From NCBI GenBank assembly GCA_002685655.1, contig NYXM01000090.1:1-15579 (forward strand): a stretch of 15,579 nt of DNA. The letters run 5' to 3'. The translations under genes and the position numbers were made by a program. The notes under the pieces were generated by a model, which saw only the letters and a program-made list of their open reading frames with translations, was not told the DNA's origin and did not search any database. The stretch's first letter is position 1; each line of letters opens with the position of its first letter. The stretch comes from Planctomycetaceae bacterium (GTDB lineage Bacteria; Planctomycetota; Planctomycetia; Pirellulales; Pirellulaceae). Shown piece by piece: positions 10,777 through 14,740 of the stretch.

Positions 10777-11874
10777 CTAAAGCAACGTCAGGGGGTTTTT
10801 GCGATTCTCCAAAGGCACGCTCACCAGTGCGTTCTGCCGATGGGATTCAAACACGCCGGCGATCATCTCGATCGTCGTCCGCCCCTCGTAAACGCTGCAT
10901 TCGGGCAATCGATCTTCTTGAATCGCCTGCAACAGATCGCGCACTGCCAGCACGTTGCCTGCGTTCAGACCGCCGTTGTTCAGCGGTTCGGGCTGGCCCG
11001 GTCCAGCTGAAGAAACAGGGATCCACTTGGCCGCACTCCTGCCGGGCGACCATTTAGGATCTGGCAGGAAATTCACAGCTGGCAAATATCCAGACAGGAT
11101 TTCAATAATCCCTTCCGAGCCAAAAATCTGCACGCCGAATCGCTGGCCCTTGCCCTGGTCGCGTTGCGAAGCGAAATAAGCGGTCACACCATCATCCATG
11201 CCGTACATGGCGGCCAGGGAATCGCCGGCAAGCGGCCCGATCCCTTCGCTGCCCTCTGCGACGTCCTGCTTGGTAATTGGCTGATTGTCTTGCTGTACTT
11301 GGGCAAAACACCAATTCGGTTCACCGCCAAAATGGTGCATCAGGTTCATGACGTGGCTTCCCAGTACCCACAGATCCTCGCCACCGCCACGACGATCTTC
11401 TTTGCCACGACCACGCATTTCCAAGACCTTGCCGACCTTGCCGTCGGCGATCAAGTCACGAACGACGTGCAATTTCGGGCTGTAACGCGTTTGGTGCGCT
11501 AGTGCCAATTTGACATGCTTCTTCTCACACGCCAACGCCATCTGATCGGCCTCTTCCAAGGTCCGGCACATGGGTTTTTCCATATAGACATGCATCCCAC
11601 GTTCAGCGGCCGCCACCACCATATCGCGATGTTGATTGACCCAACGCGGACAGACCGCCACGATGTCTGGCTTCGTCTCGTCGAGCAGCTTGCGGTAGTC
11701 AGCAAAACCAAGTGGTGCCTTGAGACGCTTGATCGCCTGCGCTCGGCCGCCTTCATCGGGATCCGCGACACCCACGATTTCGCACTCAGGAAATTGAAGC
11801 CAGACGGAATCAACTCCGTGACCGTAATTGCCTTTCCCCGTGTGTCCGATGACGCCAACTCGATAAGTTGCCAC
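10777..11874 (-). CDS. Gfo/Idh/MocA-family oxidoreductase
   Basis: A 365-residue protein. The GTG at 11874 was chosen because AGGAG lies 7 nt upstream and the Rossmann fold begins at once (ATYRVGVIGHTGKGNYGHG). The open frame extends 103 codons further upstream, but those residues look non-coding. Motifs include the nucleotide-binding loop (6-20), VGVADPD (35-41), the EKP signature (99-101, in YMEKPMCRTLEEAD), and GSHVMNLMHHFGG (172-184), which supplies the histidines expected near the active site. These enzymes oxidise or reduce sugars and cyclitols with NAD(P). The loop departs from plain GxGxxG, reading GHTGKGNYGHG. There is no Tat signal, so it is likely cytosolic. It is divergent from the methyltransferase cassette and apparently unrelated to it. 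Substrate unknown. Confidence 0.85.
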   Translation of the reverse strand: MATYRVGVIGHTGKGNYGHGVDSVWLQFPECEIVGVADPDEGGRAQAIKRLKAPLGFADYRKLLDETKPDIVAVCPRWVNQHRDMVVAAAERGMHVYMEKPMCRTLEEADQMALACEKKHVKLALAHQTRYSPKLHVVRDLIADGKVGKVLEMRGRGKEDRRGGGEDLWVLGSHVMNLMHHFGGEPNWCFAQVQQDNQPITKQDVAEGSEGIGPLAGDSLAAMYGMDDGVTAYFASQRDQGKGQRFGVQIFGSEGIIEILSGYLPAVNFLPDPKWSPGRSAAKWIPVSSAGPGQPEPLNNGGLNAGNVLAVRDLLQAIQEDRLPECSVYEGRTTIEMIAGVFESHRQNALVSVPLENRKNPLTLL

Positions 11875-12077
11875 GAGATTTCTCCTATTGCCGAACGGAA
11901 CGTACAGCGAGCATTGTGACCTTCCGTTCATCCGAAAGCAAACAGTTGAAGACGCCGAAGCTGCTTGATTTTCTGGTTCGAAAAAGAAGATTTCACAGCC
12001 TATCTGGTTCGCTGCGCATACCAAGATGGGCAAAAGGGTGGGGCTTGGTCGAGTTTCCGCCTTAAGCTTCAAGCTCG

Positions 12078-12106
12078 TTGAACGGGTCGTCAGAATGCCG
12101 TAAAAT
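12078..12106 (+). promoter_or_regulatory. sigma70-type promoter for the methyltransferase cassette
   Basis: TTGAAC (12078-12083) and TAAAAT (12101-12106) are 17 nt apart, close to the bacterial housekeeping consensus. Transcription would start near 12113, giving a leader of about 44 nt made mostly of the duplicated ribosome-binding segment. Confidence 0.55.
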
Positions 12107-12113
12107 GCAGGTT

Positions 12114-12153
12114 GATCCTGTTTGGAGGGAGTCGATCCTGTTTGGAGGGAGTC
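12114..12153 (+). repeat. perfect 20-bp tandem duplication carrying the Shine-Dalgarno
   Basis: The unit GATCCTGTTTGGAGGGAGTC occurs twice with no spacer (12114-12133 and 12134-12153). Each copy holds GGAGG; the second lies 8 nt before the GTG start at 12157 and is the working ribosome-binding site. The first copy lies 28 nt before the start. Confidence 0.9.
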
Positions 12154-12156
12154 AGT

Positions 12157-13821
12157 GTGGCGTTGCAAAAAAACAGCATCCATCAGGGTGATTGTATTGA
12201 GTCGTTGAAGAAGGTCAGCAAAGAGTCAGTCGACCTCGTTTTTGCCGATCCACCCTTCAACATCGGATACAAGTACGACGTTTATGACGATGCAAAACAG
12301 ACTGACGACTACCTCAGCTGGAGTCGTGAGTGGATCAGGGGGGTTCACCGTATCTTGAAACCCAATGGCACATTTTGGCTGGCCATTGGTGATGAGTACG
12401 CAGCTGAATTGAAAATCGAGGCCAAGAAGGCAGGTTTTCATTGTCGCAGTTGGGTGATCTGGTATTACACATTCGGCGTGAACTGCGTGAACGGCTTCAG
12501 TCGGTCGCACACCCATCTCTTTCATTTCGTCAAGGACCAGACGGATTTCACTTTCAACAGATTACATCCGCATGTGCGGGTAAAGTCGGCCAGACAGCTT
12601 GTCTATGCGGACAGTCGTGCGAATCCCAACGGCAGGTTGCCCGACAATACGTGGATCATACGGCCTCAGGATGCGCCGGAAAGTTTCACCCCAAATCACG
12701 ACACATGGTACTTCGCACGTGTCGCCGGAACCTTCAAAGAACGCGAGGGGTTCCATGGTTGTCAAATGCCGGAACAGTTGCTCGCGAGAATCATCAGAGT
12801 TTCAAGCCATCCACAGGATCTCGTGGTTGACCCTTTCGGCGGCAGTGGAACCACACTGTGTGTTGCAAAAAAACTGGGGCGGCAATGGATTGGGTTCGAA
12901 CTTTCTGATGACTACACCAACTACATCGAACACAGATTAGATGGAACGAACGTTGGCGATCCGATCGATGGCCCCGAAAACCCAATTAAGAGTGCGCCAA
13001 CTACGGCGAAAGGCAAGCGGCGAAAAAAACCGTTCGACGACGATACGGAGAAGGCAGTTATCGCTGCCTACAAACAAGCGGGCTGCGGTTATCCGGCGGA
13101 TTATCTCTTGTGCGACATAGAGTTGAACGCGGATTTCGTTTCTGAATGTCGAAAGCGCTGCAACGGTGGAAGCGCGTACTTGTGGAACCATTTCCTGTTG
13201 AATTTGAGGAAAAACAACAAACTTCCAAGAGCGACAAAGCGGCCCGGGCGAATCAATTCAATGCAAATGGACACGTACGGGTTCGCCAGCGAAGTCGCAT
13301 GGCGATTGCTGGCAATCGATTATCGTCGCACGCTCGACGACATCTTGTGTTCGCCCGAATTTGCTGCCGAGTTTGATCGCTTGGCTGCCGAATTCGGCCC
13401 AAGGGATGTCTCCGTGACGTCTCTGGACTATCGGCGCGCAGCGCAATCCATTCGAAAACGATCGAAAAACGCCAGAGTTACCAGCGCAAAACAGTTTAGT
13501 CAGTGGTTTCGCAAGACTCGAAAACTGCGACGGGTTGACATCGAAGAGTGCCTTAATGCAGAGTTCGAGATCCCCGGCGTTTTTGTCCTCTGTTCAGATA
13601 ACTATGGGATCTATGCCGGAGAAAGTGAGAACATCCGTGTTCGGGTCCAACAGGTTCGTGAAAACCCGAAGTGGCAGGGTTTGGAACCAAATTCGATTCT
13701 GTATGAACCTAACGATGGGAGCCTCGCCACAAAGTATGCGCTCAAGTCTGCATTGGTCCGTCGCGAGAGTACACTTTTGAACTGCCAATTGTTGGTTCAT
13801 AATTCGGAGTTCCCGACTTAA
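12157..13821 (+). CDS. beta-class DNA methyltransferase with C-terminal GIY-YIG-like domain
   Basis: A 554-residue protein (GTG start after GGAGG). Residues 1-270 are an N6-adenine/N4-cytosine methyltransferase of the N6_N4_Mtase type: catalytic DPPFN (31-35), then QMPEQLLARII (203-213), then the S-adenosylmethionine site VVDPFGGSGTT (223-233) and GFELS (246-250). The catalytic-before-cofactor order is that of beta-class enzymes such as CcrM and HinfI. DPPF favours adenine-N6. A basic linker (TAKGKRRKKP) leads to a region of about 180 residues with no recognised fold, a candidate target-recognition part. Residues 473-554 resemble a GIY-YIG nuclease: PGVFVL, YGIYAGES, NIRVR and YALKSALVRRESTLLN. 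Two expected catalytic residues look replaced (Phe for the first Tyr, Lys for the Glu). It is followed by two small genes. The methyltransferase call is firm; the GIY-YIG call is pattern-based. Confidence 0.85.
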   Translation: MALQKNSIHQGDCIESLKKVSKESVDLVFADPPFNIGYKYDVYDDAKQTDDYLSWSREWIRGVHRILKPNGTFWLAIGDEYAAELKIEAKKAGFHCRSWVIWYYTFGVNCVNGFSRSHTHLFHFVKDQTDFTFNRLHPHVRVKSARQLVYADSRANPNGRLPDNTWIIRPQDAPESFTPNHDTWYFARVAGTFKEREGFHGCQMPEQLLARIIRVSSHPQDLVVDPFGGSGTTLCVAKKLGRQWIGFELSDDYTNYIEHRLDGTNVGDPIDGPENPIKSAPTTAKGKRRKKPFDDDTEKAVIAAYKQAGCGYPADYLLCDIELNADFVSECRKRCNGGSAYLWNHFLLNLRKNNKLPRATKRPGRINSMQMDTYGFASEVAWRLLAIDYRRTLDDILCSPEFAAEFDRLAAEFGPRDVSVTSLDYRRAAQSIRKRSKNARVTSAKQFSQWFRKTRKLRRVDIEECLNAEFEIPGVFVLCSDNYGIYAGESENIRVRVQQVRENPKWQGLEPNSILYEPNDGSLATKYALKSALVRRESTLLNCQLLVHNSEFPT

Positions 13822-13826
13822 TAGTC

Positions 13827-14186
13827 ATGGACGAAAACGTCGCGAAGAGATGTCTGGCAATTTGTCCCCTATTCGAAGGCGAATTACTTCTTGAATTGAT
13901 CCTGCGCCATTGGAATCATCCGTTCGCGGACGAAGAACTTTTTCGTCAACAGCTGCTGGAAACGGCGACCGAAGTTCTGATGACGTCGTCTGATTCTTCC
14001 TGCCAGCACGTCTTCATAGATGAACTGCCGCCGCAGCAAATGAACTTCATATCCGCCATTTGGTACGTGGAATTCTGTGCCGTGCAGGATGACGATCGGC
14101 AACGTGAGTTGCGAGAAAGGTGGCTTGCCGAAGTTCGTCGTTGCTTGCCGTCCTGCTTTTGCCCGTTGGATTTGCTTGAACCATAG
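13827..14186 (+). CDS. 119-residue protein of unknown function in the methyltransferase cassette
   Basis: It starts 5 bp after the methyltransferase stop, with no clear Shine-Dalgarno, so it is probably translated by coupling. It is acidic in the first half (FEGELLLELILRHWNHPFADEELFRQQLLE) and likely mainly helical. The second half has NFISAIWYVEFCAVQDDDRQRELRERWLAEVRR, ending CLPSCFCPLDLLEP with three cysteines. No membrane segment, signal peptide or nuclease motif (such as PD-ExK or HNH) is visible. I do not recognise the family. Its position suggests a partner or regulator of the methyltransferase, but that is inference from spacing alone. Confidence 0.7.
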   Translation: MDENVAKRCLAICPLFEGELLLELILRHWNHPFADEELFRQQLLETATEVLMTSSDSSCQHVFIDELPPQQMNFISAIWYVEFCAVQDDDRQRELRERWLAEVRRCLPSCFCPLDLLEP

Positions 14187-14187
14187 T

Positions 14188-14310
14188 ATGCACAAGCCCC
14201 CAAAGCTCATCCTGACGTTCGACGATTTGCCATTGCAGGAAGCAATCAAGAAGCTCTTTGAAGATCCGGCTTTCGTTCGCAGCGAAGCACTCTTGAATGC
14301 TTCCGTGTGA
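14188..14310 (+). CDS. 40-residue small protein ending the methyltransferase cassette
   Basis: The ATG is one base after the preceding TAG, so it would be translated by reinitiation. The product (MHKPPKLILTFDDLPLQEAI, then KKLFEDPAFVRSEALLNASV) is compact, with a short amphipathic helix and no membrane segment. An open frame extends further upstream inside the 119-residue gene, but that part reads as a shadow. No family recognised. Tight spacing supports it as a real gene; the short length keeps confidence moderate. Confidence 0.45.
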   Translation: MHKPPKLILTFDDLPLQEAIKKLFEDPAFVRSEALLNASV

Positions 14311-14389
14311 CAGGCAAGATATCAGCCGGTTGGAAGAGATCATCTTACCATCTGCGCGCACGCACTGCGAGCTAGACGGGGGTGGTCTT

Positions 14390-14740
14390 TCAGGACTGGA
14401 TCACTCGCTGCATCCGATTGACCAGGCGGTCGATCCCCCCGCCCAAGAACTCTTTTTTCTTCTCGCCGGCAACGTACACGATCGTGTAGGGCAAGTCATC
14501 CAGTTCGCTGAGCCAGGGGTTTTCTTTCTTGAATGCGCCCAATCCTGGACGGTCCAATTCTAGCTTGCCGAAACGAACTTCGGTCCACCGCTGGTCGTCC
14601 GCCAGGAATCCATTCAATTCCTCGGTCCAGGCGCGGCAGGCTGGGCAGTCGGTCTTGCCCAGCATCAATACGACAGTTGGCGCGGCCAGGAAGTCGCGCC
14701 AACTGTCGCGGTCCAATATCTCGAGTCGACTCGTGATCAA
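14390..14740 (-). CDS. thioredoxin-like protein with CPAC active site
   Basis: A 116-residue protein starting with TTG at 14740. The start overlaps the peroxiredoxin stop (TTGA), and a GGGGGAGGGG tract lies about 8-10 nt upstream, supporting this unusual start. The fold is a single thioredoxin domain: TVVLMLGKTDCPACRAW (22-38) with redox cysteines 32 and 35, and LPYTIVYVAGE (83-93) with the cis-proline at 84. The usual Trp before the first cysteine is Asp. There is no signal peptide, so it is cytosolic. Coupling to the peroxiredoxin suggests it serves as its reductant; that partnership is inference, the fold is clear. Confidence 0.82.
   Translation of the reverse strand: MITSRLEILDRDSWRDFLAAPTVVLMLGKTDCPACRAWTEELNGFLADDQRWTEVRFGKLELDRPGLGAFKKENPWLSELDDLPYTIVYVAGEKKKEFLGGGIDRLVNRMQRVIQS

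Follow-up and report, generated by a model that had tools for sequence, protein, structure and literature searches.

We characterized a 15,579-nucleotide stretch of planctomycete DNA (Planctomycetaceae bacterium, GenBank assembly GCA_002685655.1, contig NYXM01000090.1; hereafter, the window), in which the gene for a DNA methyltransferase, M, is directly followed by a small gene, S. The pair is probably the remnant of a restriction–modification (R-M) cassette with the gene order M-R-S. R, a stand-alone GIY-YIG nuclease encoded by relatives, would be missing between M and S; the place of S in the window, which in relatives is taken by R-S or S, fits such a loss. At the level of sequence, this reading is carried by the common ancestry of the C-terminal tail of M and R, the loss of catalytic residues in M, the order of R and S genes in relatives and selection on the tail.

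The only Pfam match of M above the cut-off was PF01555 (N6_N4_Mtase; residues 25–257, E = 5.8e-52, 177.3 bits with a cut-off of 26.7). Together with a DPPF-first motif order, this match places M among the beta-class N6-adenine/N4-cytosine methyltransferases. A first-pass annotation, made by a model from the letters alone, had described a 554-residue beta-class enzyme with a long C-terminal extension, and reading frame, Pfam match and motif order all agree with it. Residues D31–F34, D225–F227 and G229–T233 were invariant in an alignment of 33 M rows, and the tail was less conserved. The best 120 of 7,999 scored candidate homologues were all 66–91% identical to M over at least 95% of the query, and those named by organism were planctomycetes. 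An AlphaFold model from a 62-row alignment had a mean predicted local distance difference test score (pLDDT) of 84.2, with a mostly confident core (loops 36–43, 105–116 and 164–195 were below 50) that Foldseek placed with CcrM (top match), MboIIA and RsrI. The nearest NCBIfam model was PRK11524 (NF008572; E = 4e-47), which we take to be the YhdJ model, but the score of 160.7 bits was below the equivalog cut-off of 292, and M is not assigned to that equivalog; plasmid genes annotated as yhdJ were ~37% identical to M over residues 4–262. Its DPPF motif and its resemblance to adenine methyltransferases suggest adenine as the base that M would methylate. As some lineages have lost the tail, it is unlikely to be the sole specificity element; the strongly conserved core is a likelier reader of the target site.

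The tail consists of a helical module and a GIY-YIG-like domain (Table 1). Both were modelled with confidence (helical module, residues ~295–446; alpha/beta domain, pLDDT 93–97 over residues 461–550). Profile–profile comparison of 15 M tails with 35 intact nucleases gave a probability of 98% (E = 1.6e-13), which bears out the earlier call of a GIY-YIG-like C-terminal domain; the fold call rests on this comparison, as Pfam gave no GIY-YIG match in the M protein of the window. The helical module, as seen in R, is made of two related units (probability 95.9% over 60 columns); compared with the GIY domain, the units reached 1.1% and 0.4%. The full catalytic set (Tyr, Tyr-x-Gly, Arg, His, Glu and Asn) was present in 0 of 201 and 0 of 85 M tails. 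Among the 201 tails, Glu was missing from all and His from 197, and Asn was kept in all and Arg in 143. M genes adjoining an intact nuclease gene bear the same dead tail. As the catalytic Glu is always missing and no tail has the full set, the tail is probably nuclease-derived and not a working nuclease. For 11 pairs of related M genes without adjacent R, the ratio of nonsynonymous to synonymous substitution rates (dN/dS) was 0.04–0.21 in the GIY tail (9 unsaturated pairs), 0.02–0.28 in the helical module (8 pairs) and 0.015–0.054 in the core (9 pairs), the ratios being rough in the several cases with dS > 1.5. By this measure, the tail is under purifying selection even where no nuclease gene adjoins it.

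R is encoded by the next gene after M in nine relatives (8 of 79 loci—L042, L043, L060, L061, L063, L064, L073 and L074—plus genome G400) and shares both the helical module and the GIY-YIG domain with the M tail. Its catalytic set was complete in all nine, PF01541 was found in both R proteins tested, and fold and catalytic residues together identify R as a GIY-YIG nuclease. The M and R reading frames share a few bases in L043, L060, L073 and L253. Adjacent genes for M and an intact nuclease, the arrangement of a Type II R-M system, were thus found in nine relatives and not in the window. A nuclease profile (E = 1e-8) run over window frames of at least 150 codons matched M alone, so the earlier statement that no separate restriction enzyme is present holds for the GIY-YIG family; no cognate endonuclease gene adjoins M, whose neighbours are S and a Gfo/Idh gene, the profile search being one for this family and not for unrelated endonucleases. 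No R-like match was found in plasmids, annotated phages or IMG/VR.

In a tblastn scan of gene order at the 79 loci, which covered at most 1,500 bases downstream of M, R was found in nine (one broken, L056), S in six and a short S remnant in two. The order M-R-S occurs at L043, L060, L064 and L074, and M-S without R, the arrangement of the window, at L028 (gap of ~160 bp) and L047. Beyond these loci, G400 has M-R, G422 and G075 have M-S, and in G401 S comes after a fragment of R. Clustering of open reading frames (ORFs) around M at 77 of 80 loci (L036, L066 and L070 were left out, as their M frame was not picked) yielded no cluster besides M/R in more than nine loci. S-bearing M genes lie on scattered branches of the M tree. 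At L003 (3800–4205), a decayed S start directly behind M is followed by transposase-like sequence, presumably of the IS66 type. Genome G022, home of the M-R-S locus L074, also encodes a divergent module protein (L213, 8028–8987) with a tail without the catalytic set (IYYSQLN); the ORF next to it resembles what we take to be a D12-class methylase fragment.

Searches for S in 392 genomes across the phylum and 241 genomes of one family gave two and three matches, respectively, all five adjoining M or R. A protein search gave five S relatives, three of them probably on the same contig as an M homologue; the other two, P0125 and P0126, lie on contigs whose neighbouring genes are not visible. By gene order, S is a genuine member of the system, directly behind R or M wherever the DNA is visible. 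We found no S in IMG/VR. Assignment of S to a known family was rejected (nothing above cut-off in Pfam or NCBIfam, and no PADLOC match), and its weak matches (NleG, DUF3399, NHLP and Muskelin; E = 0.019–0.11) were taken as chance. The 40-residue ORF behind S has no relatives in the examined M loci (best E = 0.21). The first-pass annotation had seen two small partner genes of 119 and 40 residues, spaced 5 and 1 bp apart: the ORFs and their spacing are as described (S starts 5 bp after M, and the 40-residue ORF 1 bp after S), and the larger is linked to M, but the smaller is not supported as a gene or a partner.

Table 1 Features of the M–S locus, by position in the window
Feature	Position	Strand	Evidence
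Promoter-like match, TTGAAC-17-TAAAAT, at chance level	12078..12106	+	Motif scan compared with shuffles
Exact 20-bp tandem duplication of GATCCTGTTTGGAGGGAGTC, bearing Shine–Dalgarno-like GGAGGGAG	12114..12153	+	Copies at 12114 and 12134
M, beta-class DNA methyltransferase of 554 residues, its C-terminal half made up of the helical module and a probably dead GIY-YIG domain; GTG start at 12157, 554 codons, stop ending at 13821	12157..13821	+	ORF, Pfam, homologues, structure model
M core, residues 1–268; DPPF motif before DPFGGSGTT (beta order)	12157..12960	+	PF01555, alignment, Foldseek
Helical module, residues ~290–446 of M, with its homologue in the N-terminal region of R	13024..13494	+	Profile comparison, structure model
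GIY-YIG-like domain of M; Glu to Lys, His to Val, first Tyr to Phe; second Tyr, Gly, Arg and Asn unchanged	13513..13818	+	Alignment, profile match
S, conserved 119-residue protein, fold unassigned, seen only adjoining M or R	13827..14186	+	Homologue searches, gene order
40-residue ORF, probably outside the cassette	14188..14310	+	No relatives, best E = 0.21

Across the phylum, 16 of 294 sampled genomes contained tailed M or the nuclease (up to nine candidates scored per genome). Within the family of genome G001, which appears Pirellulaceae-like from its Rhodopirellula- and Stieleria-type loci titles, the M core was matched at E ≤ 1e-60 in 194 of 241 genomes, and at least 120 of these have the tail. 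Thirteen loci were picked for a core match that ends early; 11 had a short C-terminus (in L244, 147 residues and lysine-rich) and two (L245 and L246) a long one without the module. The latter pair, which carries a lysine/alanine-rich, histone H1-like tail behind the M core, is included in the 75 cellular rows of the core tree that count as tailed by length, the other 73 having the module. This replacement of the module by a basic, DNA-binding-like tail in some genomes hints that the job of the tail may be to hold DNA. The first-pass annotation had asked whether the three proteins stay together in other genomes, and would have taken its proposal as refuted by methyltransferase homologues devoid of the C-terminal part and both small genes, or by small genes that are not conserved. 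The findings go against the proposal in part: S is linked to M or R but lies behind only 6 of 79 M genes, the 40-residue ORF has no relatives, and M occurs with short (11 of 13 loci) or lysine-rich (2 of 13) C-termini. Tail and S are thus separable from the core, but each is conserved where present. Among viral contigs, L081 from IMG/VR has a tailed M homologue (46% identity over residues 3–498), and others have tail-less cores up to 62% identical to M.

We propose that the C-terminal half of M is a paralogue of R that has kept the fold and lost the catalytic residues. R would cut the fixed site of M when unmodified, and the dead tail would bind DNA and hold M on it, or would formerly have paired with R. 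S would help M, since it is retained alongside M at loci that lack R, and the present function of the unit would be to mark the genome or to regulate genes, not to restrict DNA. Several points weigh against this explanation, besides the roughness of some dN/dS ratios. The 80 genome loci are the best matches to a window-like alignment, which biases the frequencies of R and S. The M tree is unrooted and from a quick search, with 47 of 132 inner branches open, and it is from the scatter of R and S over this tree that loss of R, and not gain, is read. Module-less M proteins with very similar cores are interspersed among tailed ones, strong branches forcing at least two changes, so the tail can be lost and is not needed for the job of the core. 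Foldseek alone gave no match of the nuclease to the PDB at E ≤ 0.001 (best, 3.4e-3 at probability 1.00), and the activity of R and its pairing with M are presumed from sequence and gene order. R is known to be absent within the window, and a nuclease may lie elsewhere in the genome.

The tail keeps a GIY-YIG-like profile and a confident alpha/beta domain, with Asn universal, Arg frequent and purifying selection acting on it, as it might if the cassette were an active, compact defence unit whose tail cleaves or is activated by S. We find this hardly credible given the absence of Glu from every tail, of His from nearly every tail and of the full set from all, the description of R.Eco29kI E142Q and Y49F as inactive variants in PDB titles, and the dead tail of M genes that adjoin an intact nuclease. 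The missing Glu likewise divides the earlier picture of one chain for both modification and defence: methylase and nuclease-derived module are indeed in one chain, but probably not as a working unit. Conservation of the core, its presence in most genomes of one family and the sub-cut-off match to PRK11524 would also be consistent with a solitary house-keeping or regulatory methylase (CcrM/YhdJ-like), to which R and S were added secondarily in a few genomes. We consider this unlikely: S accompanies M on scattered tree branches and leaves remnants behind M, the M tail is itself nuclease-derived, and tailed M or nuclease is rare across the phylum.

The partner nuclease could also have persisted elsewhere, in the form of a seemingly exported GIY-YIG protein from this family. 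Stand-alone nucleases with the same helical module and GIY-YIG domain occur in 67 of the 241 family genomes (one, in G400, is the adjacent R; examples of the exported type are L165–L170, L201–L209, L211 and L212, among others). Their catalytic set was complete in 40 of 41, and of 73 M-bearing genomes searched, 12 have such a gene at a site apart from M, including relatives of the window M (L001, L002, L004, L005 and L006). A hydrophobic, signal-peptide-like stretch (12-residue Kyte–Doolittle mean > 1.8, the extension being counted from the first possible start) was found in the N-terminal extension of 38 of 41, compared with 0 of 9 adjacent R proteins; the measure means little for L237 and L239, which are among the 38 but have extensions of more than 480 residues. 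These nucleases of Pirellulaceae-like bacteria are thus possibly exported, which would remove them from the cytoplasm. Nor were they associated with tailed M (36 of 120 genomes with and 31 of 121 without, Fisher p = 0.47; the 36 include G400 with its adjacent nuclease), nor with the presence of an M core match of any kind (52 of 194 with, 15 of 47 without; p = 0.47), and a relocated R was dropped as the main reading. The counts were compiled by hand among the matches listed (up to 11 nuclease or five core candidates scored per genome), leaving out nuclease fragments (G369, G381 and G401) and keeping frames > 700 codons (G431, G435 and G462). We therefore regard a partner elsewhere as very improbable. 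In the 10.8-Mb genome of a relative, G013, the nuclease profile matches only the M tail. L240 and L241 (close genomes G396 and G397) have an exported-type nuclease ~6.6 kb from a tail-less M, and in L237 and L239 the nuclease module ends open frames > 750 codons, which may be fusions with other domains or mere chance openings.

The neighbours of the cassette resemble ordinary chromosomal genes: a Gfo/Idh oxidoreductase (Pfam) lies on one side, and a peroxiredoxin (Pfam) on the other, beyond a small ORF whose sole match, to thioredoxin, is below threshold. The listed start of the Gfo/Idh ORF (10777–12183) overlaps the M start region; its Pfam domain begins at residue 108, so the true start is probably further in. 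The guanine + cytosine (GC) content of the cassette is 50.8%, compared with 57.3% in the first 12,100 bases of the window, and is close to the lowest value among 135 equal-length segments (50.6%); the GC counts given earlier for single lines (27, 27 and 37 of 60) were exact on recount. The duplicated ribosome-binding segment reported just 5′ of the M start was confirmed. The promoter was not: it is a 9-of-12 match, with two such sites in 11900–14500 and 1.9 expected in shuffles.

Few papers on planctomycete methylases were found by literature search, and titles and abstract openings, a search to which REBASE and subscription papers did not belong, contained no description of the tailed-M/R/S family. 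We tentatively propose, at slightly less than an even chance, a new Type II-like R-M family of Planctomycetota whose R and M descend from one ancestor along ~250 residues (helical module and GIY-YIG domain). The corresponding half of M would be a permanently disarmed pseudo-nuclease, with a role in guiding the methylase or, by pairing with R, in restraining or docking the latter; S would belong to the system as a small third protein, and M would outlive R and become widespread in a lineage as an epigenetic marker. Judged by sequence, the apparent novelty is the fusion of a methylase to a disarmed paralogue of the nuclease that seems to be its companion, together with a small third gene. The arrangement is seen in several states (M-R-S, M-R, M-S, M alone and M without the module), the dead part being kept under selection, and with this range of states, the route by which a restriction cassette turns into a long-lived solitary methylase can be tested directly.

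Restriction enzymes of the GIY-YIG type have been described before (Eco29kI, Cfr42I and Hpy188I); the present family differs from these Type II systems in that M bears an apparently dead paralogue of R. YhdJ/PRK11524, CcrM, M.RsrI and M.MboIIA have the beta-class core in common with M, which exceeds YhdJ/PRK11524 by ~290 C-terminal residues. The DnmA–YeeB–YeeC cluster of Bacillus subtilis, whose working methylase was interpreted by its authors as the leftover of a non-functional R-M relic, likewise contains a T5orf172/GIY-YIG-type gene in a conserved cluster, but DnmA is MmeI-like, a helicase gene is present and the available part of the paper mentions no nuclease-derived methylase tail (PMC9973331). 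Conserved orphan methylases beside patchy R-M systems are described for Halobacteria in another study (PMC6471742). Fused Type IIG/IIC enzymes (TspDTI, TsoI family) resemble M in joining nuclease and methylase parts in one chain (PMC3384240); there one chain performs both reactions, whereas the nuclease part of M looks dead and relatives hold an intact, separate copy. According to a 2014 review, paired R and M proteins show no resemblance in sequence in any ordinary Type II system and arose by gene association; with ~250 residues shared between R and M, the tailed-M/R family looks like a counter-example to that rule (PMC4081073).
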